Positions 44,146-59,005 of a stretch of DNA of 64,000 nucleotides are shown here, piece after piece (within the stretch, counting starts at the first letter, position 1; every line of letters starts with the position of its first letter). The notes under the pieces were generated by a model. It saw nothing but the letters and a program-made list of their open reading frames with translations. It did not search any database and had not been told where the DNA came from. Made by a program: the position numbers and the translations under genes. Origin of the DNA: an uncultured Aquimarina sp. (GTDB lineage: Bacteria > Bacteroidota > Bacteroidia > Flavobacteriales > Flavobacteriaceae); assembly GCA_947493035.1 (NCBI GenBank), contig CANLOW010000004.1, positions 1-64,000 on the forward strand, in the 5' to 3' direction.

Positions 44146-44349
44146 TTAATCCATTGAAAAGAAAAACTTATCAAAAAGCCTTTTTTTCTTCTTCTTGGTG
44201 CTGACGACATTGTCACTTGCACTAGATATATCAGTATTAGAAGAAGACGATCCGTATATAGACATGTACTGTTGTTCATATTTTTTTATAAACAACACAA
44301 AATCCTTTTCTAACCCTAAGTTGGATAATTCTAACTTATTATAAGGCAT
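44146..44349 (-). CDS. Small hypothetical protein of the Roadblock-like operon
   Basis: 67 residues: an N-terminal predicted helix (KLELSNLGLEKDFVLFIKKYEQQYMSIYG), a Ser-rich linker, then a very basic stretch (KKKKKRLFDKFFFSMD) that could bind a membrane or nucleic acid. The ATG overlaps the 3' end of the preceding gene by eleven bases, which supports it being a real translated gene. No family recognised. Confidence 0.65.
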   Translation of the reverse strand: MPYNKLELSNLGLEKDFVLFIKKYEQQYMSIYGSSSSNTDISSASDNVVSTKKKKKRLFDKFFFSMD

Positions 44350-44713
44350 TATTTAATTCTTTTCTATACTTGTTAAGTAACGTTTTAGTTATTGCAATAT
44401 TCGCCTTTGAAGAATCTATTGCTAAATAAATAAAATAACCACCACTAGGTGCTACGTTAATAATATGAATTTGAGTATCTAAAGTAATAGAAATATCTTT
44501 TATTTCATCTTTTAAACCTAATGCTTCCTTTGCTCTTAACTTAGCATTAACTACTTCTAAGTTGTAAGCAGAAGCTAATACAGGGTCGAAACTTGATACA
44601 GCAGTATCAGAGACCATAGATTCTCCTGTGCTTAATTCAGTTACACTAATTGCGATGTAACCAGGAATATTTTCACTTACGTTTTTTACTAAATCATCTA
44701 AAATGTCTTGCAT
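44339..44713 (-). CDS. Probable Roadblock/LC7-fold protein (second of pair)
   Basis: 124 residues. MQDILDDLVKNVSENIPGYIAISVTELSTGESM, then an alpha helix (DPVLASAYNLEVVNAKLRAKEAL), a beta strand run (DISITLDTQIHIINVAPSGGYFIYLAIDSS) and a C-terminal helix. This order, helix-beta-beta-helix-beta-beta-beta-helix, is that of Roadblock/LC7 (MglB-like) domains, which bind small Ras-like GTPases or dimerise in signalling complexes. The start at 44711-44713 is preferred; the frame is open 31 codons further upstream across the preceding gene's end. No GTPase gene adjoins. Family membership is inference from pattern, not a database hit. Confidence 0.7.
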   Translation of the reverse strand: MQDILDDLVKNVSENIPGYIAISVTELSTGESMVSDTAVSSFDPVLASAYNLEVVNAKLRAKEALGLKDEIKDISITLDTQIHIINVAPSGGYFIYLAIDSSKANIAITKTLLNKYRKELNNAL

Positions 44714-44742
44714 GCTTATTGGTTTTAGGGTGTTTATAAATG

Positions 44743-45069
44743 TTATATTTTCTTCAATGTTAATCCTATCAATGCCGTATTGATACTCTTCTCCGAAAAG
44801 AAGCATAAAAAGCTCTTATCGTCATACTTATATAAAAACATCGACTTGCTTCCTGTCCTTAAAGTGATATCACTAATATTAGATTCAAAAAAGTTTTCAA
44901 AAAAATCTTCAGACATATTAAATAAAACATTGGCAAAAACACCAATCTTTTTAAAGTCTGAATTCAGATCATTTTCTTCTTTTGAATAAGTATCTACTAT
45001 TTCTCCTTTCTCATTCACTAAAAGAATGATAGCTGATTTCGTTTTATCTGCTATAGCTTCTAAATTCAT
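44743..45069 (-). CDS. Probable Roadblock/LC7-fold protein (first of pair)
   Basis: 108 residues. SAIILLVNEKGEIVDTYSKEE forms the first beta hairpin, IGVFANVLFNMSEDFFENFF a helix, then SDITLRTGSKSMFLYKYDDKSFLCFFSEKSINTALIG the beta strands and last helix. The layout resembles MglB/Roadblock domains although Cys and Phe are unusually frequent. It is the first gene of a three-gene minus-strand operon with a TATATTTG promoter. A heterodimer with the next protein is plausible; nothing in the sequence proves it. Confidence 0.7.
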   Translation of the reverse strand: MNLEAIADKTKSAIILLVNEKGEIVDTYSKEENDLNSDFKKIGVFANVLFNMSEDFFENFFESNISDITLRTGSKSMFLYKYDDKSFLCFFSEKSINTALIGLTLKKI

Positions 45070-45110: not shown

Positions 45111-45485
45111 TATCAAACAATAACATTAGGCTTTTATTAACAATCAATCAATTAAAGAATCTGCCGAAATGCACAATTAATCGTTAATATACCAAAAAAA
45201 CCTTTTTATTAAGATTTTCCACACTATGTAATAGTTGAAAATACCCAAATCCCTAATGGAATTAAAAATTCTATTTGTTTAAAGAATCAAAAATAAGCTA
45301 TTATTAAATAATTGAGTTGTTTTAAGAGTATTATTTACACAATCATAACTATTTTAAAACTAACACCTCATAAAACAATAAAAGCCAATAATTTACCTTA
45401 ATACAACAAGTGAACAAGACATTATAACTTCTAGTAGGATCTATTAAGTAATAAATTTAATACCTTGCTTAGAAATAAATTTTCA
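45111..45485. other. Intergenic region between divergent Roadblock-like operon and lactonase gene
   Basis: About 375 bp of very AT-rich sequence with no gene. No clear TAnnTTTG element was found for the lactonase gene on the plus strand. Confidence 0.55.
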
Positions 45486-46607
45486 ATGAAAAAGTCGTTT
45501 TACATCTTTACTATATGTTTTATTATGTTTTTTGGAATGAATGCTCAAAAGACTTACTTGTTCACTAGTGGATATACTAAAAACAAGAAAGGAGAAGGTG
45601 TACAAGTATTCGAATTTAATCTAGAAAACGGCTTAACAACGAAAGTTGCTTCGATAAAAGACATTATCAATGCAAGTTATTTTGAATTAAATTCTACAGG
45701 AAACAACTTATACACCTGTAATGATTTAGGGCGGGAGCAAGAAGGAAAAGTTAGTGTTTATGATTTCAACCCAAAAAAACTAACTTTCAATTTATTACAA
45801 CAAGCTTCTAGTAAAGGATACAATCCTTGCCATATCACTTTATCTTCTAAAGATGATTTAGTAGCTGTATCTAACTATACTCAATCTAGTGCTGCTGTTT
45901 TCAATATTAAATCTGATCGTCGCTTAGACAACAATCCTTCTGTTTTCAAATTTAAGGGAAATAGTACTATGAAAAGTAGGCAAGAAGCTTCGCACCTCCA
46001 CTCTGCTAAATTTAGTCCAGACGACAAATACATATATCTCCCAGATTTAGGAACTGATCAAATTCATACCTTAAAAATTAAAAAGGACTCTCCTTTATCG
46101 TGTAAAAATCTTACTACAAACACAGCTAAATCAGCAGGACCAAGACATTTCACCTTCCACCCTAATGGTAATTTTGCATACGTTATAAACGAATTAAGTG
46201 GAACAGTTGTAGGTTATCGATTCAAGGAAGGGAAACTCATTGAGCTTGGAAGTTATTTTTCTTATTCAAAGAAACAAAATGATTACGGGTCAGCTGACAT
46301 ACATATTTCTCCTGATGGTAAATTTCTGTACGCATCAAACCGATGGACAGAAGAAAACACCATTTCCATTTTCAAATTGAATCAAGAAAACGGTAGTCTA
46401 GAACTCAAAGGGCATCAATCTACTTATGGAGATCACCCAAGAAATTTTGTTATTGATCCTTCTGGTAATTTTTTATTAGTAGCTAATCGAAACACAAACA
46501 ATATTGTGTTTTTCAAACGTGATCAAGAAACAGGTTTATTAAGTAAATTGGATCATGAAATCACAATGAATGAACCTACTTGTTTAAAATTTCGCACCTA
46601 TAATTAA
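45486..46607 (+). CDS. Exported lactonase family protein (6-phosphogluconolactonase-like beta-propeller)
   Basis: 373 residues. A signal peptide (MKKSFYIFTICFIMFFGMNAQ) precedes a seven-bladed beta-propeller of the YbhE/lactonase family: LFTSGYTKNKKGEGVQVFEF, HLHSAKFSPDDKYIYLPDLGTDQIH, GPRHFTFHPNGNFAYVINELSGTV and GDHPRNFVIDPSGNFLLVANRNTNNI (partly quoted). Family members hydrolyse 6-phosphogluconolactone or act on cyclic carboxy-muconolactones; export to the periplasm argues against the pentose-phosphate role. The start ATG at 45486 gives a proper signal; an upstream TTG is disfavoured. Confidence 0.9.
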   Translation: MKKSFYIFTICFIMFFGMNAQKTYLFTSGYTKNKKGEGVQVFEFNLENGLTTKVASIKDIINASYFELNSTGNNLYTCNDLGREQEGKVSVYDFNPKKLTFNLLQQASSKGYNPCHITLSSKDDLVAVSNYTQSSAAVFNIKSDRRLDNNPSVFKFKGNSTMKSRQEASHLHSAKFSPDDKYIYLPDLGTDQIHTLKIKKDSPLSCKNLTTNTAKSAGPRHFTFHPNGNFAYVINELSGTVVGYRFKEGKLIELGSYFSYSKKQNDYGSADIHISPDGKFLYASNRWTEENTISIFKLNQENGSLELKGHQSTYGDHPRNFVIDPSGNFLLVANRNTNNIVFFKRDQETGLLSKLDHEITMNEPTCLKFRTYN

Positions 46608-46857
46608 GAACTTCAATAACCAGAATCCCTTAAGAAAAGTTTTCTTGCTAATCTGATTATAGATTAAAATAACATTACCAATAGTAAAATAGAATTTTAT
46701 TTTATTAAGTATACCTATCCTCTTATCTGTATATTAAAAAATATATCCTCAAGAAAACCATCTCCTGATACAAAGACAATTTTCACCAAAACCAATCTCA
46801 GGCAAAATGTTATATTTTTACTAAAAAAAATATTCTGCACAATAATAGGTATTACGT

Positions 46858-46876
46858 TCAGTTACAAAGTAACTGA
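46858..46876. promoter_or_regulatory. Perfect palindrome TCAGTTAC-AAA-GTAACTGA upstream of the beta-helix array
   Basis: An 8+3+8 perfect inverted repeat that ends 11 bp before the ATG of the first array gene. It could be an operator for the whole array or a small hairpin in the leader. No second copy was noticed in this window. Confidence 0.6.
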
Positions 46877-46887
46877 CAAACCTAATC

Positions 46888-48870
46888 ATGCTTAATCACA
46901 AAGGCTTTCGTTTCAATACTATTTTTTTAGTAATGATAATGTGTTTATTTTCTTGCTCTGATGTTGAAAATTCGGATATAAAACCAAACGACGACATTGT
47001 CTCAGATATTCCTGATGACAGCGCTCCTCCATCAGAAGAACCTATTGAAGAAACTACTCAGAAAATTTATTGTGATTTTGATTTATCAAAAGTAAATGAA
47101 GGGGAAAATGTTGTTATTAATTGCAAATTAGATTTAGAAGGAAAAACAATCTCATTACCTGATAACATTACTCTTTCATACAATAACGGAAGTATTGTAA
47201 ACGGGACACTTCTTTTCACTGCCACGGGCAAGATTGATGGACGTTTATTAAATTTATCCTTAAAATTAGAAGGAAATGCACAATTAATAAATAATGAATT
47301 CGAATTCATACCTAGCCTATGGGAAATTACAGAGGGTGAAGTTGACCAAACTAAAGCTTTAGACAATAAAAACAATATACAAACTGCATTAAATACGGTA
47401 AAAAAACTTCAAGGGAATACATTCAAAATTGATAAAATGAATGCTTTTTTTGAGGTAGGAAATTATCAAAATCTTGATGTATTCAGATCTGTAGACCATG
47501 CTATCAAAATACCTTCTGATTTTAATGTAATAATGTCAAAAGAAAATACATTCTTAAAAGTTTTTCCTAATGATTCTCCCAACTACGCATTGATGGCAAT
47601 ATTTGACTCAAAAAATGTGACCATAGATGGTGGTAATCTTTTAGGTGACAGAGACAAACACGCATATACAGATAGCAGCCCACATGAACATGGACATTGC
47701 TTACAAATACGCTCAGGAGTTAATGTATTGATAAAAAATTGCTATTTCGGATACGGAAGTGGAGACGGAATCGATATTAATAGTATCGGTTTCACTTTTC
47801 AACCGACTTATAAACCTTCTAATGACATTAAAATATTATCAAACACTTTTGATACAAACAGAAGAAATAACATTTCTATTACAGATGGAAATAACATCTT
47901 TATTGAAAATAACCTCTTATTGAATGCAGGAATCCATACGGTTGACTCTAGAGGTATTGACCCAGGGTTTGGTATCGACTTAGAATCCGTAAGAGATCGT
48001 GACTCTAATGGAGAACTCATCTTTTTTCAACGTTCTGAAGACATTTTTATAAGAAACAATACTGAACGAGGAAGTCGAGTTGGAGCAATTACTGCTGCAA
48101 TATCTTATGATGTTTTGATTGAAAATAATATTACTGAAGGAGCTATTGGATACAGCTTTGGTAATGGAATTACCATTACAGAAAATAAAATAACTGCTAA
48201 AGAAAATAACGGAGATGGAAAATCAGGGATTTTTGCTGGAAAAATAGGAGGTGATGCTACCGTGTACAATAATATTGTCTCTAATAATGAAATTAATGGG
48301 TACAGTGTTGGTATTACCGTTCACAATAGAGATACTGAAATTACAGGGAATACTATTTCTAACTTTACTACAGGTCTATTTCTTAAAAAACTAAAAAATG
48401 TTCAGTTTAATGATAACATACTAAATAGCGATCAGCCTTCTAGTAAAGGGATTTTTGTTAATCTAACATCTTTAGATGATGTCTCCTTTTCAAACAACAA
48501 AATAAATGTTAAGGGAAATTCTCTTGTTTTATCTAGTGTTAATAGTTCCTCTAGCTACAAATTTACCTTCGATTTAAATGAATTTAAATCTGTTGCTCCA
48601 ATATTAATTAGTAAAACAACAGGGTTATTATTCAAAGAAAATACCTTGAATAATGGGATTCAGTTATTTGATTCTAATGACATTACATTTTCCAATAACG
48701 ACATTACATCAAATAACAACCATGGGATCTATTTAAGAAATAAGAATAAAGATGTTGCTATTAAATCAAACAAAATTCAAGTAGCCACATCAAACTTCAA
48801 CTGTATTGAAATACAAAATAGCACAAATAAAATCGACCTATCTATCGTCGAAAATGAATGCAAAATCTAA
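46888..48870 (+). CDS. Beta-helix lipoprotein, array copy 1
   Basis: 660 residues. Lipobox C-L-F-S-C puts lipid on C23. Residues 24-60 are an acidic Pro/Ser/Glu linker. A small beta domain (61-150) has the Cys pair C62/C79 and the G-x-I-x-x-G-x-L pattern. The rest is a parallel beta-helix with many N-N-x-I/N-x-T-type turns. Conserved positions shared with the paralogues: GDRDKH (253-258), HEHGH (266-270), SGDGIDI (291-297), NRRNNISITDG (324-334) and GFGIDLE (360-366). Two Cys near the C-terminus probably form a disulfide cap. Beta-helix proteins of this kind are usually polysaccharide lyases, hydrolases or surface adhesins; no enzyme family is identified. First of five co-directional copies. 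Confidence 0.9.
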   Translation: MLNHKGFRFNTIFLVMIMCLFSCSDVENSDIKPNDDIVSDIPDDSAPPSEEPIEETTQKIYCDFDLSKVNEGENVVINCKLDLEGKTISLPDNITLSYNNGSIVNGTLLFTATGKIDGRLLNLSLKLEGNAQLINNEFEFIPSLWEITEGEVDQTKALDNKNNIQTALNTVKKLQGNTFKIDKMNAFFEVGNYQNLDVFRSVDHAIKIPSDFNVIMSKENTFLKVFPNDSPNYALMAIFDSKNVTIDGGNLLGDRDKHAYTDSSPHEHGHCLQIRSGVNVLIKNCYFGYGSGDGIDINSIGFTFQPTYKPSNDIKILSNTFDTNRRNNISITDGNNIFIENNLLLNAGIHTVDSRGIDPGFGIDLESVRDRDSNGELIFFQRSEDIFIRNNTERGSRVGAITAAISYDVLIENNITEGAIGYSFGNGITITENKITAKENNGDGKSGIFAGKIGGDATVYNNIVSNNEINGYSVGITVHNRDTEITGNTISNFTTGLFLKKLKNVQFNDNILNSDQPSSKGIFVNLTSLDDVSFSNNKINVKGNSLVLSSVNSSSSYKFTFDLNEFKSVAPILISKTTGLLFKENTLNNGIQLFDSNDITFSNNDITSNNNHGIYLRNKNKDVAIKSNKIQVATSNFNCIEIQNSTNKIDLSIVENECKI

Positions 48871-48874
48871 AAAA

Positions 48875-50881
48875 ATGAAAAACACCGCTTCTTATATTAA
48901 ACATTCTATAAGCATAGTTTTAGTTTTATTGTTAACTGTTTTTTCTTCATGCTCTGATGTTGAAAATTCGGATATAAAATCAAACGACGACATTGTCTCA
49001 GATACTCCTGATGACAGCGCTCCTCCATCAGAAGAACCCATTGAAGAAACCCCAGAAGTAACAGAAAAAAACTGCGATATCGATTGGAATACATTAATGG
49101 TAAAAGATGTTCTAATTGTCGATTGTCTTTACGATTTGAACAATGAAACAATCCGAATTCCCAGAGGAGTATTGATTAAACATGAAGAAGGTGGTGAAAT
49201 AATAAATGGTACTTTCGAATTTGAAGGTATAAACGGAATCGCTGGAGCATTACTTCATCATACATTAACCTTATCAGGAGAAGTCACTTTACTAAATAAC
49301 ATATTTGAATTTATTCCCGAAAAATGGAATATCACTGAAGGTGTTGTTGATGACCTTGTTGCTCGAGAGAATCGTGATATTTTAGAAAATGCTATGATTT
49401 TCACTCAAAATATGGGAGCTGAAAGGTTTATCATTGACAGAATGGATGCTTTCTTTAATGTCGATGAGCCTGAAACTTTACGTCCATCCACTGCAGCCAT
49501 CAATGTACCTTCTAATTTCACCTTACAAATGAGTGATAATACACATCTAAGAATGCAACCTAATGCTGCTATTAGACCAACTCTTTTAGCAACACATTTA
49601 GGTGAAAATATTCTTATTGATGGAGGAATACTTCATGGAGATAGAGATCAACATGATTATTCAAGCGGAGGAACTCATGAATGGGGACATTTGCTTAGAA
49701 TTTCAGGAACCAAAAATTCAGTATTCAGAAACATGACGTTCATGGATGCCACGGGAGACGGTGTCGATGTTCACGCAATTGGACATTCTTTCGATCCTTT
49801 TTATGCTTATTGTGACAATGTAGTGATAGAAAAAAATACTTTCATAAGAAATAGAAGAAATCAAATTTCTATTACTGATGGAAGGAATATCATCGTAGAT
49901 AAAAATGAATTTATAGATGCGAGTATACATACTGAAAAATCTAGAGGTATTGCCCCAGGATTTGGAATCGATGTAGAAGCCGTTAGATTTGGAAATCCTA
50001 GAGGGATTTCGGAAATAGCTGAAGATATCACCATAAAAAACAATACTGAAAGAGGAAGCCGCGTGGGCGCAGTAACAGTTCATACTGGTGACCGAGTGAC
50101 TATTGAAAATAATACTTTCGAAAACAGCATCTCTTATTCAACTTCTATAGGAACTATTATTAGAAATAATGAAATCACTGGAAAAACACCCAAAAATACA
50201 GACCGTGGTATCGCTATTGTAGCTGGACGAAGTGACGTATATGACAAAAATTATGATGGAAGAGTATATGGCAATACCATAAACAACTACAGTATTGGTA
50301 TGGTTTTAACCAATAAAGACTTAGAAGCTTATGACAATCAAATTATTGATTGTAAAGTAGGTATTAACATTGCAACTATTAGAAATTCAAAAATCTACAA
50401 TAATACTGTAAAAAGTAGTCGTGAAAATAGTGATGGTATTGTTAGTCATCCAACTATAGAATATATGGATAATGTATACGTTGGATTAGAAAATAAAGGT
50501 AATATCGTCGATGTTACAAGAACTCCTTTAAAATTTGTTAATGTAAATACAGGTACCGACCAAACTGATTTTAAGTTAATGATTAATTACAATACGATCA
50601 ACTCTACCTCAACTTGTACGTTTGCAAATTCTCATGGATTTGACGCTTCTAACAATACAATACGAGAAGGTGGATTCCGATTATCAGAAGTTGAAAGAGC
50701 GAATTTTACAGAAAACAAGATCACTTCGACTGTAGCTAATGGTATTCGTATAGATGCTGGTTGTAGTAACCTGTTAATTTCTAAAAACACCATCAAAGTA
50801 ACAGGAAGAAATCTTGAGTGTATAAAAGAAAACACTAGTGATGGTATCAATATCACTATAACTGATAATTCATGCAATTAA
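48875..50881 (+). CDS. Beta-helix lipoprotein, array copy 2
   Basis: 668 residues from ATG 48875, four bases after copy 1; the frame is open 23 codons upstream inside copy 1. Lipobox ...FSSC with the same SDVENSDIK start as copy 1: about 101 bp of the linker DNA differ at only three positions from copy 1. The N-terminal beta domain (NCDIDWNTLMVKDVLIVDC) is the most divergent of the five. The centre of the helix has GDRDQH, HEWGH, TGDGVDV, NRRNQISITDG and GFGIDVE, with DNA blocks identical to copy 3. It ends in the conserved Cys pair (LECIKEN...DNSCN). Same inferred role as copy 1. Confidence 0.9.
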   Translation: MKNTASYIKHSISIVLVLLLTVFSSCSDVENSDIKSNDDIVSDTPDDSAPPSEEPIEETPEVTEKNCDIDWNTLMVKDVLIVDCLYDLNNETIRIPRGVLIKHEEGGEIINGTFEFEGINGIAGALLHHTLTLSGEVTLLNNIFEFIPEKWNITEGVVDDLVARENRDILENAMIFTQNMGAERFIIDRMDAFFNVDEPETLRPSTAAINVPSNFTLQMSDNTHLRMQPNAAIRPTLLATHLGENILIDGGILHGDRDQHDYSSGGTHEWGHLLRISGTKNSVFRNMTFMDATGDGVDVHAIGHSFDPFYAYCDNVVIEKNTFIRNRRNQISITDGRNIIVDKNEFIDASIHTEKSRGIAPGFGIDVEAVRFGNPRGISEIAEDITIKNNTERGSRVGAVTVHTGDRVTIENNTFENSISYSTSIGTIIRNNEITGKTPKNTDRGIAIVAGRSDVYDKNYDGRVYGNTINNYSIGMVLTNKDLEAYDNQIIDCKVGINIATIRNSKIYNNTVKSSRENSDGIVSHPTIEYMDNVYVGLENKGNIVDVTRTPLKFVNVNTGTDQTDFKLMINYNTINSTSTCTFANSHGFDASNNTIREGGFRLSEVERANFTENKITSTVANGIRIDAGCSNLLISKNTIKVTGRNLECIKENTSDGINITITDNSCN

Positions 50882-50901
50882 TAAAAGTTAAATAAAATAA
50901 C

Positions 50902-52863
50902 ATGAAAAATAGCGTATACTCGTTAGAATATATCATCTGTATTATTTTCTCATTAGCTGTGTTTTCATGCGCTGATGTAGAAAAATCAGATATCAAACCG
51001 AATGATGATATCGTTGTTGAATCCCCATCAACATCAGATTCTCCGGAAGAAACTCCCTCTGAGGAAACTCCTGAAATCACAGAATGTATACTAGATTTAT
51101 CAACGGTAAAAGAAGGTGAGACTATAGCTATTAATTGCCTTTTAGATTTAGAAGAGAAAACGATAATGCTTCCTAAAAACGTAACACTTTCATACGACGG
51201 AGGTGATATCATCAATGGAACTTTAAACTTTTCTAATACAGGGCTAATTGATGGTCGCTTACTAAATTCATCATTAAAAATTGATGGAGACACGCAATTA
51301 ATCAATACTGAATTTGAATTTACACCTAGCCGTTGGGCTATTACCGAAGGTAAAGTAAACGATGATGTAGCCAGAAGAAATCGAGATATTTTAGAAGAGA
51401 ACATGGTTCTTATAAAAGAATTAGGAGCTTCTAAATTCTTAATTGAGAATATGGATGCTTATTTTAATGTCGTAGAAATTAAATCTAATTTCAGACCCTC
51501 TCAAGGAGCAATTAGTATTCCTGCTGACTTTTATTTAAAAATGAGTGACAATACTCATATCCGAATGCAACCTAACAATTTCAAACAACCGTCTCTTTTA
51601 GGCATTTTCACAGCAAACAATGTTACCATTGAAGGAGGAAATCTATATGGTGATAGAGATGAACATGATTATTCAAGCGGAGGAACTCATGAATGGGGAC
51701 ATTGTGTTAATATTGATGGTTCAAAAAATGTAATTATTAAAAACATAACAATAACAGATGCTGCTGGTGATGGTGTTAACATTCATGATTTTGGACATAC
51801 ATTTGACCCACACTACACGTTTTCTGAAGATGTATTAGTTACAGGAAATAAAATTATAAGGGCTAGAAGAAATGGAATTAGTATTACAGGAGGCAAAGAA
51901 CTTATCATTGAAGAAAATGAGTTAATCGACTCTGGAACATCTACCGACAAATCTATTGGAACAGCTCCCCAATGGGCTATTGACATAGAGCCCGTTTGGT
52001 CAAATGGAACCAAATTTGAAATCGTAGAAAATGTAATTATTCGTAACAATACAGAACGAGGATCAGAAAAAGGAGGCTTCATAAATGCTAGAGGCCATTA
52101 CATAACTTATGAGGGTAATCTAATGGAGAGTACTATTGCCATAGGAGAAACTATAGGCTCTATCGTTAGAAACAATACATTCAAAAACCCTACAAAAAAT
52201 TCCAAGACAGCTATTTTAGCTGGAATGAATGATCCTAGAGGGCATGGAAATGAACGTAATTCAGATAATCAGGTATATGGAAACACGATAATTGGTTTCG
52301 ATAAAGGGATCTTTTTACAAGATCCTGAGATTGATCTTCACAGCAATACAATCACAAATTGCAAAAGTGGAATACAAATATTAAACTCAAGAGATTCTAA
52401 AATACGAAACAACACTATCACAAGTAATCGAGAGAGAAGTGAAGGCATAGCCAATAAAGTAAGTGAATATATCGATAACGTAACGATAACTGAAAACACT
52501 ATTAAGGTAGTTGGGTCTCCTTTTAGGTTTACTAGTGTAAATTTAGAGGACCCTCAAAAGGATTTCCGTATTACTATTGAAAATAATGACGCAACTTCTA
52601 CAGGCAATAATATTTCAAGCTTTAATAAAATAAGAGGTTTTTTCTTTAAAAATAATTTGTGTCATAATTCTGGAATTCGAACAGTAAGGGCATCATCAGG
52701 GTATATCTCAAATAACACCTTTGAAAATGGAATTATTATAATTAGCGAAGGTTCTACTGACATTAGTTTTACAGATAACATCGTTACTGGTGGTAAGTGC
52801 TTTAATGAAAATAGCACTGATGTTAGTAATATTATTAAAAGCAATAACACTTGTGATATTTAA
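50902..52863 (+). CDS. Beta-helix lipoprotein, array copy 3
   Basis: 653 residues, ATG 21 bp after copy 2. Lipobox AVFSC. Linker DVEKSDIKPNDDIVVE and a TSDSPEETPSEETPE stretch are almost the same as in copy 4. N-terminal beta domain with the Cys pair (ECILDLSTV...INCLLDL). Helix motifs: GDRDEH, HEWGH, AGDGVNI, RARRNGISITGG and QWAIDIE, so the residue before V-N differs from copies 1 and 2. C-terminal Cys pair present (KCFNENST...NNTCDI). Same inferred role. Confidence 0.9.
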   Translation: MKNSVYSLEYIICIIFSLAVFSCADVEKSDIKPNDDIVVESPSTSDSPEETPSEETPEITECILDLSTVKEGETIAINCLLDLEEKTIMLPKNVTLSYDGGDIINGTLNFSNTGLIDGRLLNSSLKIDGDTQLINTEFEFTPSRWAITEGKVNDDVARRNRDILEENMVLIKELGASKFLIENMDAYFNVVEIKSNFRPSQGAISIPADFYLKMSDNTHIRMQPNNFKQPSLLGIFTANNVTIEGGNLYGDRDEHDYSSGGTHEWGHCVNIDGSKNVIIKNITITDAAGDGVNIHDFGHTFDPHYTFSEDVLVTGNKIIRARRNGISITGGKELIIEENELIDSGTSTDKSIGTAPQWAIDIEPVWSNGTKFEIVENVIIRNNTERGSEKGGFINARGHYITYEGNLMESTIAIGETIGSIVRNNTFKNPTKNSKTAILAGMNDPRGHGNERNSDNQVYGNTIIGFDKGIFLQDPEIDLHSNTITNCKSGIQILNSRDSKIRNNTITSNRERSEGIANKVSEYIDNVTITENTIKVVGSPFRFTSVNLEDPQKDFRITIENNDATSTGNNISSFNKIRGFFFKNNLCHNSGIRTVRASSGYISNNTFENGIIIISEGSTDISFTDNIVTGGKCFNENSTDVSNIIKSNNTCDI

Positions 52864-52875
52864 ACTTTTCAACTC

Positions 52876-54849
52876 ATGAGAAAAATTCTAAGCTATAGCA
52901 ATCACATTCTTTATACTATTCTTTTAGCATCCATATTTTCATGCGCTGATGTCGAAAAATCAGATATCAAACCGAATGATGATATCGTTGTGGAAACCCC
53001 TTCAACATCAGATTCTCCGGAAGAAACTCCCCCTGAGGAAACTCCTGAAATCACAGAATGTATACTAGGTTTATCAAATGTAGAAGAAGGTGAGACCATC
53101 TCTATTAATTGCCTTTTAGATTTAGAAGAAAAAACGATAATGCTTCCTAAAAACGTAACACTTTCGTACGACGGAGGTGATATAATCAATGGAACTTTAA
53201 ACTTTTCAAATACAGGACAAATTGATGGACGACTACTAAATTCATCATTAAAAATTGATGGAGACGCGCAATTAATAAATACTGAATTTGAATTTACACC
53301 TAGCCGATGGGGAATTATTGAAGGAAAAGTAAACGATGATGTAGCCAGAAGAAATCGAGATATTTTAGAAGAAAGCATGTTTTTGATAAAAGAACTTGGC
53401 GGACAAAAGTTTAGTATCGATAAGATGGATGCCTATTTTAAAGTGGACGAACCCTCAGGAAAACCTGTACCATCACTGGCAGCTATCAATGTTCCTTCTG
53501 ACTATCATTTATTGATGTCCGACAATACTCATTTACGCATGCAACCTAATGCATATAAACGCCCTGACTTGATCGGATTGCATAGAATTACTAATACCAT
53601 TATAGAAGGAGGTTTTTTACATGGTGATAGAGATGAACATGATTATTCTAGTGGAGGAACTCATGAATGGGGGCATACAATTACCATTTTAGGCTCAACC
53701 AATATTACTATACAAGGCGTGACATCTATGGATGCTACTGGAGACGGTATGACAATATCATCTTTTGGCCATGCTTTTGATCCTCATTATACGCCTTGCG
53801 ATAATATCTTGATTACTGATTGCAAAATTATTCGATCTAGAAGAAATGGTATAGGTTCTGGTGATGGTAGAAATGTTCTAATAGAAAAAAATGAATTTAT
53901 AGACGTAGGGCAAGACACTGACAAATCTACTGGTACCCCACCGAGAATGGCTATAGATATTGAAGCACATAATAGAGACGGTAAAATATTTCAAATTGCA
54001 AAAGATTTTACAATTCGCAATAATAAAGAAAGAGGAAGTGTTGTAATGTCTTTTTACATTGCTTCTGGATACAATATAGTTATAGAAGACAATATTACGG
54101 AAAGCCCTATCTCTTATTTTGGTACTCACAATTCAATTATTCGTAACAATGAAATTACTGCCGCTACAGATAGACAACGTAATAATGTTATTGGTATTTG
54201 GGCAGGAGCTAGCATAACTGAATTTACTAATTACAATAATAAGATTTACAATAATACTGTAAATGGATATGCTGTTGGTATAGATATCTTAAATTTTGAT
54301 AATGAGGTATATAATAATACTATAAAAAACTGTAGAACTGGAATTGTTTTAAATACATTAAAAGATTCTAAAATATATAACAATACAATTATTAGTAACA
54401 GAGAAAGAAGCGCTGGAATAGCTTCAAAACCTCATACGGAAACCATAAATAATGTAATTGTTGAAGACAACAATATAGAGGTAGTACTACAAGCATTTAA
54501 CTTTGTAGAAGTGAATGATAAAGATGGGGATACTAATACCTTTGAAATAAAAAACAACAAAGCCAAAGCTGAAAAAACATCTTCTTTTAACTTTTTAAGT
54601 GGTATCACTTTTAGTAAAAATGAATTAGGAGGCGGAATGCGTTTAGTTGGAGCAAAAAATTCAGAGTTTTCTAACAATACAATAACAACAACTGGCGATA
54701 TACATGGTATTGATTTTTCTAGCTTGAATGATAATATTAAAGCTATCGACAATACTATTGCTATCAAAAAAGGAAGAGCACAATGTATCCGAGACAAGGA
54801 GAATAATAACAATTTAACTATCGAAAACAATAATTGCTCGCAATTATAA
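52876..54849 (+). CDS. Beta-helix lipoprotein, array copy 4
   Basis: 657 residues, ATG 12 bp after copy 3. Lipobox SIFSC. The first about 450 bp are nearly identical in DNA to copy 3, including synonymous positions. Helix motifs: GDRDEH, HEWGH, TGDGMTI, RSRRNGIGSGDG and RMAIDIE. The SITDG motif is altered (GSGDG). C-terminal Cys pair present (AQCIRDK...NNNCSQL). Same inferred role. Confidence 0.9.
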   Translation: MRKILSYSNHILYTILLASIFSCADVEKSDIKPNDDIVVETPSTSDSPEETPPEETPEITECILGLSNVEEGETISINCLLDLEEKTIMLPKNVTLSYDGGDIINGTLNFSNTGQIDGRLLNSSLKIDGDAQLINTEFEFTPSRWGIIEGKVNDDVARRNRDILEESMFLIKELGGQKFSIDKMDAYFKVDEPSGKPVPSLAAINVPSDYHLLMSDNTHLRMQPNAYKRPDLIGLHRITNTIIEGGFLHGDRDEHDYSSGGTHEWGHTITILGSTNITIQGVTSMDATGDGMTISSFGHAFDPHYTPCDNILITDCKIIRSRRNGIGSGDGRNVLIEKNEFIDVGQDTDKSTGTPPRMAIDIEAHNRDGKIFQIAKDFTIRNNKERGSVVMSFYIASGYNIVIEDNITESPISYFGTHNSIIRNNEITAATDRQRNNVIGIWAGASITEFTNYNNKIYNNTVNGYAVGIDILNFDNEVYNNTIKNCRTGIVLNTLKDSKIYNNTIISNRERSAGIASKPHTETINNVIVEDNNIEVVLQAFNFVEVNDKDGDTNTFEIKNNKAKAEKTSSFNFLSGITFSKNELGGGMRLVGAKNSEFSNNTITTTGDIHGIDFSSLNDNIKAIDNTIAIKKGRAQCIRDKENNNNLTIENNNCSQL

Positions 54850-54862
54850 AAAACTATTTCAC

Positions 54863-56962
54863 ATGTTTAGAAAAATTATCTGCTTAGTATTTTTTTTAAC
54901 TGTACTCTCATGTGCTGATGTCGAAAAATTAGATATCAAACCGAATGATGATATCGTTGTGGAAGCCCCGACAACATCAAATTCTCCAGAAGAAACTCCT
55001 GAAACCACAGAATGTATATTAGATTTATCAACAGTAAAAGAAGGTGAAACTATCACTATTAATTGCCTTTTAGATTTAGAAGGAAAAACGATAATGCTTC
55101 CTAAAAACGTAACACTTTCTTACGACGGTGGTGAAATAACCAATGGAACTTTAAACTTTTCTAATACAGGACAAATCGACGGACGACTACTAAATTCATC
55201 ATTAAAAATTGATGGAGATACGAAGCTAATAAATGATAACTTCTTATTTCTTGCTAATAAATGGAGAATTATAGAAGGCAAAACAATACAATCCATAGCT
55301 TTCAATAATCATTTAACTATACAAAAGGTTATTGATTTAGTTAAAAGTATGGGAGCTAAAACTTTTAGTATTGATAAGCTAGATGCCTATTTTGAAACGA
55401 GTAATGGTAAAGAAGCTAATACTGCTGCAATACATTTACCTTCAGATTTCCATTTAAAAATGTCTAAAAACACTCGCCTTCGTGTTTTTCCTGTAGATGA
55501 AATATACAGTAGCAGATTAATTAGAATTGAAGCAAACAGTAACATTAAAGTTTCTGGAGGTTTTTTAATTGGAGACAGAGTAGATCATGGGCCTACTAAA
55601 GGAGGTAATGTCTTGTTTGTTGTAAAAGGAGGACAAGATATTGTTATTGATAATGTAAATATGAGTTTTGGGTCTTCTACAGGTTTAACAGTTAACAGTG
55701 TATTGTTTCCTGGAGATAATAGATATGTTCCTAGTAAAAATATCTTAATTAATAATTGTGTCTTTGACTCAAATAGAGCAAATAACTTATCCATTACCGA
55801 TGGGCTAGATGTTCGAGTAGAGAATTGTAAGTTATACAGAGCAGGTAACGAGGTTAAAGGTAAATTTGGCCCTTCACTTGGTATTGCCCCTCGAATAGGA
55901 ATCGTAATAGAACCTGTGCAAGGCCAGGTGGTAGATCGTGTTACTATTAAAAATAATACGATTGAAGAAAGCCAGACCAATTCAATTTTGGCTGCAGGAG
56001 GCTTCAATATTGTCATTACAGGAAACTCTGCTGATGCTTCTGTAGGTTGGACTACAGCAACGAATGTTAAAATAATCGACAATCCTAATTTAAACGGGGG
56101 CATTATTGGAGGGCTTGACTTACCATTTGCTTTAAGCGTGAGTTCGAATAATATAATTTCAGGAAATACGGTTAAAAATGCTAATACTGGTGTTTTCCTT
56201 ACCAATGATGATATAAAAATGTTTAACAATCAATTGATCGATTGTCGCATAGGAATTATGATAAGAAACTTAAAGGACTCTGAAATATATGACAATATCA
56301 TTACTAGTGACAAAGAAGCTTCTTTTGGTATTAATGGGCAGATTTCAGCAAATAAAGTCATCATTAGAGACAATATTGTAAAACTTTCAGATGGTAGATC
56401 TATGAATATGGTAGGTATTAATAAAGAAGAAGAGTTTATTGATCATAAACTTACCATAAAAGGTAACACTTTTGAATGTGCTAAATCTGGCATTATAACT
56501 TTCAGCAATGGTTTTGAAATAACCAAAAATGATTTTTCATTAGCAGGTTTTGGGTTAACGAATTCAAAAAACATCTTAATTAATGATAATAAAATAATAA
56601 GCAAAAGTGATAATGCTTTTAGCATTAATAAAACGGAATCTTCAAAAAACATTACAGTAACGGATAATACTTTTCAAAATACAAGTTCTACTAGACTCGG
56701 TGCATACGGTGTTCGAGTGAATACTGTAGGTACTTCAGCTTTATCTGAAAATAGTAATATAGTCTTCAGTAATAATAATATTAAAGTAATTGGTACTAAT
56801 TATGCCTTGCACGTTACAAATTTTGATGATGTTACTATCACAGGAAATAATATCGAAAACGAAGAGTTAGCTTCAATTTATTTTAGGGGAAATAATTCTG
56901 AAATTTCAAACAACACAGCTTCTAGCACAGACATAGAAGGTGTCAATAATATAGTTAATTAA
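54863..56962 (+). CDS. Beta-helix lipoprotein, array copy 5 (divergent)
   Basis: 699 residues, ATG 13 bp after copy 4, lipobox TVLSC. The linker and N-terminal beta domain (to about residue 115) are close to copies 3 and 4 at DNA level, then the sequence diverges. GDRVDH and NRANNLSITDG are kept; HEWGH is replaced by a sequence without His pairs, SGDG by SSTG, and G-I-D-x-E by GIVIE. The C-terminus is longer with extra turns and lacks the terminal Cys pair. If the motifs mark an active or metal site, this copy has lost it; it may have a binding or structural role. Confidence 0.88.
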   Translation: MFRKIICLVFFLTVLSCADVEKLDIKPNDDIVVEAPTTSNSPEETPETTECILDLSTVKEGETITINCLLDLEGKTIMLPKNVTLSYDGGEITNGTLNFSNTGQIDGRLLNSSLKIDGDTKLINDNFLFLANKWRIIEGKTIQSIAFNNHLTIQKVIDLVKSMGAKTFSIDKLDAYFETSNGKEANTAAIHLPSDFHLKMSKNTRLRVFPVDEIYSSRLIRIEANSNIKVSGGFLIGDRVDHGPTKGGNVLFVVKGGQDIVIDNVNMSFGSSTGLTVNSVLFPGDNRYVPSKNILINNCVFDSNRANNLSITDGLDVRVENCKLYRAGNEVKGKFGPSLGIAPRIGIVIEPVQGQVVDRVTIKNNTIEESQTNSILAAGGFNIVITGNSADASVGWTTATNVKIIDNPNLNGGIIGGLDLPFALSVSSNNIISGNTVKNANTGVFLTNDDIKMFNNQLIDCRIGIMIRNLKDSEIYDNIITSDKEASFGINGQISANKVIIRDNIVKLSDGRSMNMVGINKEEEFIDHKLTIKGNTFECAKSGIITFSNGFEITKNDFSLAGFGLTNSKNILINDNKIISKSDNAFSINKTESSKNITVTDNTFQNTSSTRLGAYGVRVNTVGTSALSENSNIVFSNNNIKVIGTNYALHVTNFDDVTITGNNIENEELASIYFRGNNSEISNNTASSTDIEGVNNIVN

Positions 56963-57343
56963 CTCTTTTTGTTTATAAAAGTAAGACATACTATTTCTCA
57001 AAATATTGATATGAAGAAATGAAAGTAAACTGCTTTAACCTGTATTATGCATTAGAACTTTGTTATGAGTATTGAAAGCTCAATGAAATCTAGTATTTTC
57101 TTGATTTTAGCATAGCACCGTTATGGTTAAATCAAAAAATGCAATGAAGCGTTTGATTTTGCAGAGATTTCGATACGGAATAGATTTTCTAATGCATAAT
57201 GCGGGTTTAATTTCTTCTATAAAACAATTACAGCAAGTCAATCATATCAAGTGTACAAGTGATATAAAAAACATCTTGAAACCTTTTCAAAATAAGTTTA
57301 TCATACATGCTTCTGTTTTGCTATTTTTGCCATTCATAAATTT
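56963..57343. other. Intergenic region between beta-helix array and tRNA-Ser
   Basis: About 380 bp with no supportable gene. A frame at 57123-57461 runs into the tRNA and has no recognisable protein content. No strong terminator for the array was found. Confidence 0.55.
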
Positions 57344-57428
57344 AGAAGAGTGGCCGAGTGGTTTATGGCGCACGCCTGGAAAGCGTGTTTACGGAAACGT
57401 ATCGAGGGTTCGAATCCCTTCTCTTCTG
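57344..57428 (+). tRNA. tRNA-Ser (anticodon GGA)
   Basis: 85-nt class II tRNA. Acceptor AGAAGAG pairs with CTCTTCT; discriminator G at 57428. Anticodon stem CACGC/GCGTG with loop CTGGAAA gives GGA. A long variable arm (TTTACGGAAACGTATC region) and T-loop TTCGAAT follow. CCA is not encoded. Confidence 0.97.
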
Positions 57429-57434
57429 CAATAC

Positions 57435-57472
57435 AAAAGAGCTTTACATTATTTTTGTTAAGCTCTTTTTTT
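57435..57472 (+). terminator. Terminator after tRNA-Ser
   Basis: AAAAGAGCTT (57435-57444) pairs with AAGCTCTTTT (57460-57469) and runs into a T7 tract, seven bases past the tRNA. Confidence 0.9.
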
Positions 57473-57605
57473 ATGAAAAATCCGGACTTCAGTAGAATAA
57501 AAATCATTAAACCTATTTGTAATACCCTAAGCACCAAACAAGAAACACCAAACAATATTTCATATTGATAATAAATCAGTTAGCACACTAAAACGTTCAT
57601 ATTTT

Positions 57606-57671
57606 ATGAGTGGGATATTCTTTCAAAATTTTAAATACAGGGCGAAATGACAAACTCTTAACCCCACTCAT
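57606..57671. repeat. 9-bp inverted repeat downstream of tRNA-Ser
   Basis: ATGAGTGGG (57606-57614) is matched by CCCACTCAT (57663-57671) with a 48-bp interior. The interior has no reading frame. It may be a hairpin closing the minus-strand gene that ends at 57692, or a boundary remnant. Confidence 0.5.
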
Positions 57672-57691
57672 TAACAAATGTCTAATCTTTT

Positions 57692-58045
57692 TTAGTTGAG
57701 ATTATGAGTATACAAAGAGATCTGATTCTCTATATAATTGAATTTTGGAACACATATCTTAAATCTCACATTCATATTTTGTTCTAAAAATCTCATGATT
57801 TTCACAATCTCAATATCTTTATATAGCAAACAACGCTCTTCTTTTTGTATTGTATTAATCACCGATTTTAGCATTTTTAAGAGCTCTTCTTTACTAAATT
57901 CTTTGGTTTCATCTAAAGCAGCCTTAATTACATGGTTAGGATAGCTTTGATCAACTAAGGCCTTTAACCTATCATCACACAACCTCCAAGTGAATAATAA
58001 TTTATTCAAAATTTCATTTACTTCATTTTTATTTGACAGATCCAT
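57692..58045 (-). CDS. Hypothetical protein, accessory region
   Basis: 117 residues, soluble, mostly helical (MDLSNKNEVNEILNKLLFTWRLC..., KEELLKMLKSVINTIQKEERCLLY), no signal peptide, no recognised family. It is divergent from the HTH regulator gene at 58268 and shares with it a 220-bp region containing two inverted repeats, so it may be controlled by that regulator. Confidence 0.6.
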   Translation of the reverse strand: MDLSNKNEVNEILNKLLFTWRLCDDRLKALVDQSYPNHVIKAALDETKEFSKEELLKMLKSVINTIQKEERCLLYKDIEIVKIMRFLEQNMNVRFKICVPKFNYIENQISLYTHNLN

Positions 58046-58195
58046 TTGATGACTTCATTTGAGCTCAACCGTTTAGATAGTTTAAACAGTTTATAAAAAT
58101 AGCTGATTTACAAAACTTTGATTTCACTTTTGTTTCAAGTTGTATTTAATAATAATATATTTGATTTAGTTTTAAATACATTACTTGTTCAGTAA

Positions 58196-58240
58196 ATATA
58201 CATAACTAAATACGCATTAAACCTAACTAGTTGTGTATAT
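58196..58240. promoter_or_regulatory. Imperfect inverted repeat, candidate operator of the HTH gene
   Basis: ATATACATAACTA (58196-58208) and TAGTTGTGTATAT (58228-58240) pair with one mismatch around a 19-bp spacer; the arm centres are 32 bp apart, about three helical turns. It ends 27 bp before the HTH ATG. Another pair, AACCGTTT/AAACAGTT, lies at about 58069-58093 nearer the divergent gene. Confidence 0.6.
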
Positions 58241-58267
58241 TAGCATTTTTACGTATTCCCCAAAAAT

Positions 58268-58705
58268 ATGAGGTCTTTAGAGGAAATAATTCAAATTTTG
58301 AAAGAAAATGAAGTTACAGGTTACAAAATTTGCAAAGATACTAAAGGCGCTATCTCTGAAAACGGAGCAAATAAAATATTAGACGGTAAGTCTCCCAACC
58401 CCAGAAGGATAACTTTAGAGTTATTGAACTCATATATCAACGATCAACAACTTGATGATATTCCTAAAACATCCATTTTTAATATAAATGAAGTTTTAAA
58501 AAATGAAGTTTCTGATGATGATTTAAAAACCTGCATTGAAGTAGTTTTGAATAATCTAGAACGATCCCAAAAAGTAACTATTTTCAAGACCTATACTAAC
58601 TTGATACAAAATGAAATAGAAGTACAAGTAAGAAGGGAATACACTGAAATGATTAGTAAATTGATTCAATCTAAAGAACCAAGTAAGCTAGTTAGCAATG
58701 AATAG
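58268..58705 (+). CDS. Putative phage-type HTH DNA-binding protein
   Basis: 145 residues. The first 60 (LEEIIQILKENEVTGYKICKDTKGAISENGANKILDGKSPNPRRITLELLNSYI, only named here by its parts) fit a Cro/CI-type helix-turn-helix: helix 2 YKICKDTK, recognition helix ENGANKILDG, then the NPRRITLELL helix that is usual in these repressors. The C-terminal 80 residues are helical and may dimerise. It is divergent from the 57692 gene, preceded by an inverted repeat, and its 3' end overlaps the convergent coiled-coil gene by 18 bp. Confidence 0.75.
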   Translation: MRSLEEIIQILKENEVTGYKICKDTKGAISENGANKILDGKSPNPRRITLELLNSYINDQQLDDIPKTSIFNINEVLKNEVSDDDLKTCIEVVLNNLERSQKVTIFKTYTNLIQNEIEVQVRREYTEMISKLIQSKEPSKLVSNE

Positions 58706-59005
58706 TTTTACATCTTCATAGTCTAATTGACTTAGCAGAGAAAGCATCTCATTTTTTAAGATGCTATTTTTTTTTAGTAGCTCATTGTTTCTAGCGATCA
58801 ATCTTAACTCAAGATCCTTCATTCTGATCTCGTAGTCTTTCTTATCAACCTCTACTTTTTTTAACGTAGCAATTTCTTTAAGGCTTCTCTCTAATACAAA
58901 AAATTGAGCATCGGTGATATATGCAAACTGAGCATTCCTCGTCTTATCCTCTAACAACCATTTGTCTAAAGTAGCACGTATTTTGAAATAAATTTTTCTT
59001 ACCAT
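58688..59005 (-). CDS. Coiled-coil hypothetical protein
   Basis: 105 residues from the ATG at 59003-59005. Residues about 40-95 form a coiled coil with heptad-like Leu/Ile (LERSLKEIATLKKVEVDKKDY, LELRLIARNNELLKKNSILKNEML). No signal or membrane helix. Last gene of a three-gene minus-strand set after a small lipoprotein and a four-helix membrane protein. Function unknown. Confidence 0.65.
   Translation of the reverse strand: MVRKIYFKIRATLDKWLLEDKTRNAQFAYITDAQFFVLERSLKEIATLKKVEVDKKDYEIRMKDLELRLIARNNELLKKNSILKNEMLSLLSQLDYEDVKLFIAN

Follow-up and report, generated by a model that had tools for sequence, protein, structure and literature searches.

Closest described systems and the array

In sequence, the closest described counterparts of the proteins considered here are phage virion proteins, namely the tail spikes of PHROG 2234, among them gp19.1 of Bacillus phage SPO1, and gp22 of the crassvirus PhicrAss001; no published activity was found for the PHROG 2234 spikes or gp22. 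The closest analogue in proposed function is RbmB from the rbm cluster of Vibrio cholerae, reported to be a lyase that breaks Vibrio polysaccharide and predicted to fold as a beta-helix (PMC11637428). Here we analyze a 64,000-nucleotide stretch of DNA from an uncultured Aquimarina sp. (contig CANLOW010000004.1; hereafter the window), in which positions 46888–56962 hold five closely packed forward-strand open reading frames (ORFs) of 653–699 amino acids (aa), each encoding a beta-helix lipoprotein. The initial annotation of the array, made from the sequence alone, had missed both a clear kinship with phage tail spikes (phrog_2234, SPO1 gp19.1 and crassvirus gp22) and the usual home of such genes, which is an exopolysaccharide (EPS) cluster. 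On the strength of the likeness to RbmB, the relation to tail spikes, the lipoprotein anchor and the setting in EPS clusters, we propose, at roughly even probability, that these proteins are type-specific surface EPS depolymerases, where the EPS-locus copy serves the cell's own EPS and the window array is an orphan repertoire against foreign EPS. The fold and the tail-spike kinship are in themselves ordinary; what is new, as far as our searches show, is the conserved place in Bacteroidota EPS loci together with the mosaic orphan array, and no description of the family was found among titles and abstract beginnings of the open-licence PubMed Central literature.

The common architecture reported by the initial annotation is borne out, as each copy has a lipobox Cys and an acidic linker rich in Pro, Ser and Thr, together with a domain carrying two conserved Cys and a beta-helix matched by Pfam Beta_helix (PF13229; E 2.7e-18 to 6.3e-13). 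Copy 1 (46888–48870, + strand, 660 aa) contains the core motifs and is 37–39% identical to copies 2–5. Copy 2 (48875–50881, or from 48854, + strand) has canonical motifs, and its ORF opens at a TTG at 48806 with in-frame ATGs at 48854 and 48875. It is followed on the same strand by copy 3 (50902–52863, 653 aa), copy 4 (52876–54849, 657 aa) and copy 5 (54863–56962, 699 aa). The central motif set once ascribed to all five proteins is incomplete in one of them: in copy 5, HEWGH and GDG are missing, as are the Asp of GIDxE and the second Arg of RRN, and so is a C-terminal Cys pair that is present in the other four. Since the intergenic gaps are small (~4 nt counted from the ATG at 48875, then 20, 12 and 13 nt) and the three terminator-like sites within 45300–59000 all lie on the − strand, the single transcript assumed earlier is plausible.

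Kinship with phage tail spikes and fold comparisons

The PHROGs tail spike family phrog_2234 matched all five copies over the helix (E 1.1e-31 to 6.6e-24), and the core matched SPO1 gp19.1 (hhalign 1.7e-36) and crassvirus gp22 (2.3e-31). The Bacillus phages SPO1 (gp19.1), 268TH002 and Bobb share G(D/E)(R/K)xxH, (H/N)EWG, GD, RRN and GIDxE in the same order, and PhicrAss001 gp22 carries a close form of the core motifs and matches the N-terminal domain too. Across 106 unique relatives, three residues were near-invariant, namely Glu in GIDxE (106), the first Arg in RRN (105) and Arg in GDR (103); the SPO1 spike has GDK where the family has GDR, and Arg/Arg/Glu is otherwise kept in the three aligned Bacillus phage spikes. 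The claimed conservation of the motifs thus applies to this triad and not to HEWGH, which was variable among the same relatives (first His 72, Glu 72, last His 63). With its first His so often replaced, and with residues 205–209 of the structural model described below forming coil or the start of a strand rather than an alpha-helix, HEWGH was rejected as the HExxH signature of a zinc peptidase. The strand pattern of the predicted model would place Arg, Arg and Glu on successive coils, and this core fits a lyase or a hydrolase; the shared functional surface foreseen in the initial annotation was called correctly.

While the phage spikes and gp22 are parts of virions, the window-type proteins are bacterial lipoproteins, mostly of EPS loci. 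The window proteins were not accepted as phage virion parts, given the lipobox Cys in 104 of the 106 relatives and the EPS-locus home, although phage genes were not systematically searched for among the other window ORFs. Patterns built on the N-terminal signal gave no matches in genome and viral contigs, where the core alignment gave 44 and 4 loci, respectively; a third scan of viral contigs yielded four loci, one sharing a contig with an earlier match. The viral-contig matches share GDRDxHDY, and those at L112/L160 and L161/L162 also have the RRQG and G(I/V)DFEP forms. In two Bacillus phages (L157 1512–4069 and L158 2297–4757), the tail-spike relative lies directly beside a poly-gamma-glutamate hydrolase gene, possibly forming a coat-degrading enzyme pair.

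An AlphaFold2 model of copy 2 (residues 87–691 of the frame from 48806; predicted local distance difference test score 95) is a predicted parallel beta-helix similar in shape to tail spikes, to mannuronan epimerases and to RbmB, a biofilm lyase, and its structural matches include lyases and epimerases; the first Foldseek match in the PDB was the adhesin PfbA. The resemblance to RbmB would consist of the predicted fold and of a gene within an EPS system, the latter being true of the relatives and not of the window array, and RbmB was absent among the 18 matches (E up to 1) of profile A3 to PDB sequences. The available text on RbmB mentions neither a lipoprotein nature nor arrays, unlike what is seen in the window family (PMC11637428). 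The mannuronan C5-epimerases AlgE4 and AlgE6 and the alginate epimerase/lyase 8ja4 showed no shared active-site signature, and C5 epimerase profile matches were weak and confined to later coils. GH110 alpha-1,3-galactosidases and PL6 lyases, proposed earlier for comparison, share the beta-helix fold with the window family without a family profile match; the galactosidases 8yk1-3 gave a weak profile match to the stretch from GDG to GIDxE (E 0.0013–0.0026). No GH28, PL6 or GH110 profile matched, Pfam at E up to 1 returning Beta_helix, NosD and sub-cutoff chance names. NosD scored 29.9–43.5 bits (cut-off 23.6) across the repeat coils, and the sole NCBIfam result was a generic repeat model, which matched copies 1 and 3, fell below cut-off for copy 5 and was absent from copies 2 and 4. 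In line with the initial annotation, Pfam and NCBIfam place the five proteins in no curated lyase or hydrolase family, and a CAZy-type assignment was dropped. Phmmer found no match for copy 3 among PDB sequences and three weak ones for SPO1 gp19.1, the best a galacturonosidase (1.5e-4; residues 11–127, at the edge of the core).

Most relatives reside in EPS loci

At least five EPS-type genes were found in 30 of 44 named loci (at most 10 kb on each side of the gene), and among the 14 without them are arrays, copies elsewhere on the chromosome and contigs as short as ~4 kb. Aquimarina regions with a long match lay in EPS clusters in 49 of 60 cases (14/18 and 35/42), compared to 0 of 20 control regions from the same genus, hand-chosen at round coordinates; a lone GT4-like gene was present in one of these controls. 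These context counts leave out L119 (a short paralogue), L120 (an unrelated stretch), L202 (another genus), the fragments G062:C284, G064:C279 and G068:C10, and most copies already among the named loci; two regions are represented twice. Genes adjoining the family member at the 44 named loci were grouped into clusters, and labels were checked by Pfam on one representative each for ten clusters, giving Glycos_transf_1, Glycos_transf_2, MBOAT, EpsG, Bac_transf, ATP-grasp and PS_pyruv_trans, with no Pfam match at 1e-5 for three of the ten. These three are presumably SGNH, PaaK-like and polymerase-like proteins, and the labels beyond the ten representatives are likewise presumptive.

In 78 of 79 EPS loci (76 of 77 distinct ones), the gene occupies the other strand from the bulk of its cluster (the sole exception is L101), and it therefore belongs to the EPS locus but stands outside the main EPS transcripts. 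This usual home points to EPS as the target. The window genome has an EPS-cluster copy of its own on the same contig (C4 191711–193639, L117); in that cluster, two genes that we take to be DUF1800- and DUF1501-like (L117 10606–13775) are on the same strand as the EPS-locus copy. Tandem copies within an EPS locus were seen in A. intermedia (three, L100 7052–13766) and in G051 (two, L173).

Helix type was found to covary modestly with the genes of the EPS locus. Mantel tests were run on 28 loci for EpsG and on 38 of 48 loci for gene content, with multi-copy named loci left out and nine of the 48 loci chosen because they lie in EPS clusters. With the N domain controlled for, helix distance correlated with the gene content of the EPS locus (38 loci, r 0.24, p 0.0001; 34 dereplicated loci, r 0.17, p 0.0105) and with EpsG (r 0.37, p 0.0001; given the N domain, r 0.28, p 0.0013). 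The share of neighbour genes in common was 53–70% for helices at least 60% alike (20 pairs), 29% for those 50–60% alike and ~20% for the rest.

Mosaic structure of the array

The window copies fell in five separate places of a 75-protein tree (a chosen subset with part of the genes hand-picked, two exact duplicates removed and phage sequences left out). The helices of copies 1, 4 and 5 have their best matches in EPS-locus genes, namely L085_7 (54%), L084_7 from Yeosuana (57%) and the gene of G070 (L166, 58%), respectively. The copy 3 helix is 89% identical to the array gene L069_8 and then closest to the EPS-locus genes L102 (59%) and L098 (53%), and in the tree it groups with L069_8 and EPS-locus genes of Wocania and Algibacter amylolyticus. 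The copy 2 helix shares 86% identity with L068_8, which another Aquimarina carries as a lone copy close to the corresponding site. In the tree, copies 1, 2, 4 and 5 likewise group with the partners named here. In approximately unbiased (AU) tests, made after the tree had been inspected, forcing the helices of copies 3–5 together was rejected (log-likelihood difference, dlnL, 590; p-AU 2.6e-47), as was forcing copies 1, 3, 4 and 5 together (dlnL 825, p-AU 1.5e-8). The picture of five simple copies made in place hence had to be abandoned.

The N domains of copies 3, 4 and 5 are grouped in their own tree (SH-like approximate likelihood-ratio test, SH-aLRT, 96) and are joined by copy 1 (91), and the best N-domain matches of these four copies outside the window are other genes not in EPS loci. 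Pairwise identity among copies 3–5 is 63–73% at residues 1–60, 81–91% at residues 61–150 and 27–55% beyond residue 235, and nucleotide identity drops abruptly near residue 116–127 in comparisons with copy 5 and near residue 167 between copies 3 and 4. The homogenized 5' stretches, all on the + strand and with approximate limits, span 50992–51403 in copy 3 (about residues 31–167), 52966–53377 in copy 4 and 54935–55211 in copy 5 (about residues 25–116). In 60-nt windows, the copy 3 stretch is 90–96% identical to copy 4; against copy 5 it is 88–91% identical up to about residue 127 and then mostly 35–65%. When the excess of N-domain over helix identity was compared with 2529 background pairs, it was exceeded by none for copies 3/5, by one for 4/5 and by six for 3/4.

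The same mosaic was seen in a five-gene array of Tenacibaculum (L076), where four members group together by their N parts (100), and where L076_4 and L076_5 have anchors 72% and helices 25% identical, an excess beaten by no background pair. The related Aquimarina EPS-locus genes G004, G001 and G020 likewise keep the N part with a different helix. The array site itself is rearranged, because its flanks differ between genomes: in L068 the copy-2 relative lies between a tRNA-Ser, identical to the window tRNA and upstream of the gene, and ABC transporter genes, while the window array lies between a lactonase gene and tRNA-Ser(gga) (57344–57429, + strand), which is downstream of it. The 7-bladed lactonase gene (45465–46607, + strand) is the upstream neighbour and also occurs near the copy-2 relative in L068; it is not thought to be part of the array system. 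Upstream of it, on the − strand at 44339–45069, are two small overlapping ORFs, which we take by eye to be roadblock/LC7-like.

Proposed function and points that weigh against it

As type-specific depolymerases, the lipoproteins would probably be anchored in the outer membrane facing outward, where each tail-spike-type beta-helix would recognize, and probably cut, one EPS type. The usual single gene of an EPS cluster may act on the cell's own EPS in trimming, release or dispersal, by analogy with RbmB and Vibrio polysaccharide. The array would comprise five orphan genes with helices of five types other than that of the window genome's EPS-cluster copy, on anchors partly homogenized by recombination at the conserved 5' end, and could enable the cell to attack EPS made by other strains or species, for invasion, feeding or detachment; the set of related specificities suggested earlier is a likely description. 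Copy 5 and the G070 protein, lacking several core residues, may only bind. Orphan immunity-gene arrays of toxin systems follow a like logic, being adjacent relatives of one cognate gene, each for a different foreign type, whereas the items in the window are beta-helix lipoproteins tied to EPS loci and have no toxin. More tentatively, and with somewhat less than even probability, we suggest that the Aquimarina and Tenacibaculum arrays are an accreting repertoire of surface depolymerases against the slime of competitors or neighbours, in which EPS-type-specific helices of tail-spike ancestry are exchanged with the EPS loci of other species and placed on a resident lipoprotein anchor. If true, a family from 77 distinct EPS loci would supply type-matched candidate EPS-degrading enzymes, which to our knowledge are scarce for such EPS; phage and host evolution would be linked around one cassette with helix swaps between species, and bacteria would appear to keep tool collections for the EPS of other species.

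Several observations weigh against this proposal. No reported activity of any family member was found, Pfam and NCBIfam recognize no known lyase or hydrolase family, copy 5 is without several core residues, and the array has no EPS gene nearby. After the lipobox Cys, the window copies read C-(A/S)-D-V-E-(K/N), acidic at +3 and +5, and because of the Val at +4 they misfit the exact K-(D/E)2 lipoprotein export signal published in PMC5080379; the +3/+4 residues of the relatives do resemble it (acidic +4 in 90 of 104, Lys +3 in 36 of 104), which speaks for the proposal. The covariation is also not specific to the helix: with the helix controlled for, the N domain followed gene content about as closely as the helix does (r 0.19, p 0.006; dereplicated 0.24, p 0.0015), and it correlated with EpsG at r 0.44, above the helix value. 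Controlling for the initiating transferase left no significant helix–EpsG correlation (n=18, r 0.13, p 0.19), the helix showed none with that transferase itself (r −0.12), and helix and EpsG nearest neighbours agreed in 13 of 28 loci. For the mosaic structure, the N-domain tree is well supported at only 10 of 72 inner branches; placing the copy 3 N domain with its helix partner L069_8 was not rejected (dlnL 34.7, p-AU 0.092), and placing that of copy 5 with G070 was rejected only narrowly (dlnL 56.5, p-AU 0.037). Copy 2 paired with copies 1, 3, 4 and 5 showed no marked excess of anchor identity, and the tandem copies of A. intermedia (L100) have the reverse pattern, with helices closer than anchors.

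Alternative explanations

The main rival, which we regard as unlikely, is that the proteins are non-catalytic EPS receptors, the helix holding the cell's own EPS on the outer membrane and the array binding foreign EPS in mixed biofilms. The lipoprotein anchor and linker would suit such a role, tail spikes bind as well as cut, the top PDB match of Foldseek is an adhesin, and copy 5 and its kin persist without the motif residues, also in EPS loci (G070, L166; G038, L135). Against this, the near-invariance of Arg/Arg/Glu, extending to the Bacillus phage spikes apart from the SPO1 GDK, looks like chemistry, and the lyases and epimerases among the matches of the predicted structure point the same way.

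An EPS-modifying, epimerase-like enzyme acting during export, as AlgG acts on alginate, is improbable: the proteins are lipoproteins with an export-like signal in much of the family, the gene and the biosynthesis genes are on opposite strands, a biosynthetic step would hardly account for an orphan array remote from EPS genes, and tail spikes are the closest sequence kin found outside the family. We give an equally low probability to a degradation locus whose surface enzymes would target polysaccharides of algae or of other environmental origin. The names of some Aquimarina (agarivorans, agarilytica) mark them as agar degraders and the array lies outside EPS genes, but the ORFs at 36–64 kb include none longer than 699 aa and hence none of SusC size, in agreement with the lack of SusC/SusD noted at the outset, no specific glycan-degrading Pfam family was found, and the kin are located in EPS biosynthesis loci.

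Phage receptor proteins are modular, as are the helices here, and the tail-spike match and the two-domain match to crassvirus gp22 could suggest that the host displays tail-spike-like domains which strip or mask EPS receptors used by phages; this is very improbable, as no PADLOC defence match was found at E 0.01 and the conserved EPS-locus copy is explained without phages. Plain local tandem duplication followed by divergence, despite adjacency, common strand and similar N-terminal ends, is ruled out for practical purposes by the helix tree, the two AU rejections and the sharp identity breaks.

Distribution of the family

The window genome (3.3 Mb) encodes three further full-length copies and one short paralogue besides the array. 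A match was found in 59 of 66 Aquimarina genomes, with one to four per genome except in the window genome, and in 37 of 299 genomes of the family-level sample; none of 15 genomes from other families of the same order had one. Relatives were found in Algibacter, Flavivirga, Galbibacter, Tamlana, Leptobacterium, Yeosuana, Seonamhaeicola and others, and also in Marinifilaceae, Marinilabiliaceae and Cyclobacteriaceae, and Paenibacillus gave one weak match (30% over 106 residues).

The short paralogue (466 aa; G000 contig C2 105292–106182, L119 7638–9038) is without the two-Cys domain and keeps the core as GDRDTH, HDEGH, GDG, NRRQGIS and GIDIE; similar short genes were found in 18 of 65 other Aquimarina genomes searched. 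One copy outside EPS genes (G000:C8 60836–62788) is 97–98% identical to its counterpart at G077:C25 29262–31214, unlike the array genes. In-frame stops were seen in some matches (G018:C1 966765, G013:C27 42075, G054:C135 164327, G068:C10 99403 and several in the family sample). Because most of these keep open frames of ~540–710 aa, the stop may merely mark a shorter helix end; G068:C10, whose frames measure 210 and 88 aa, appears to have decayed.

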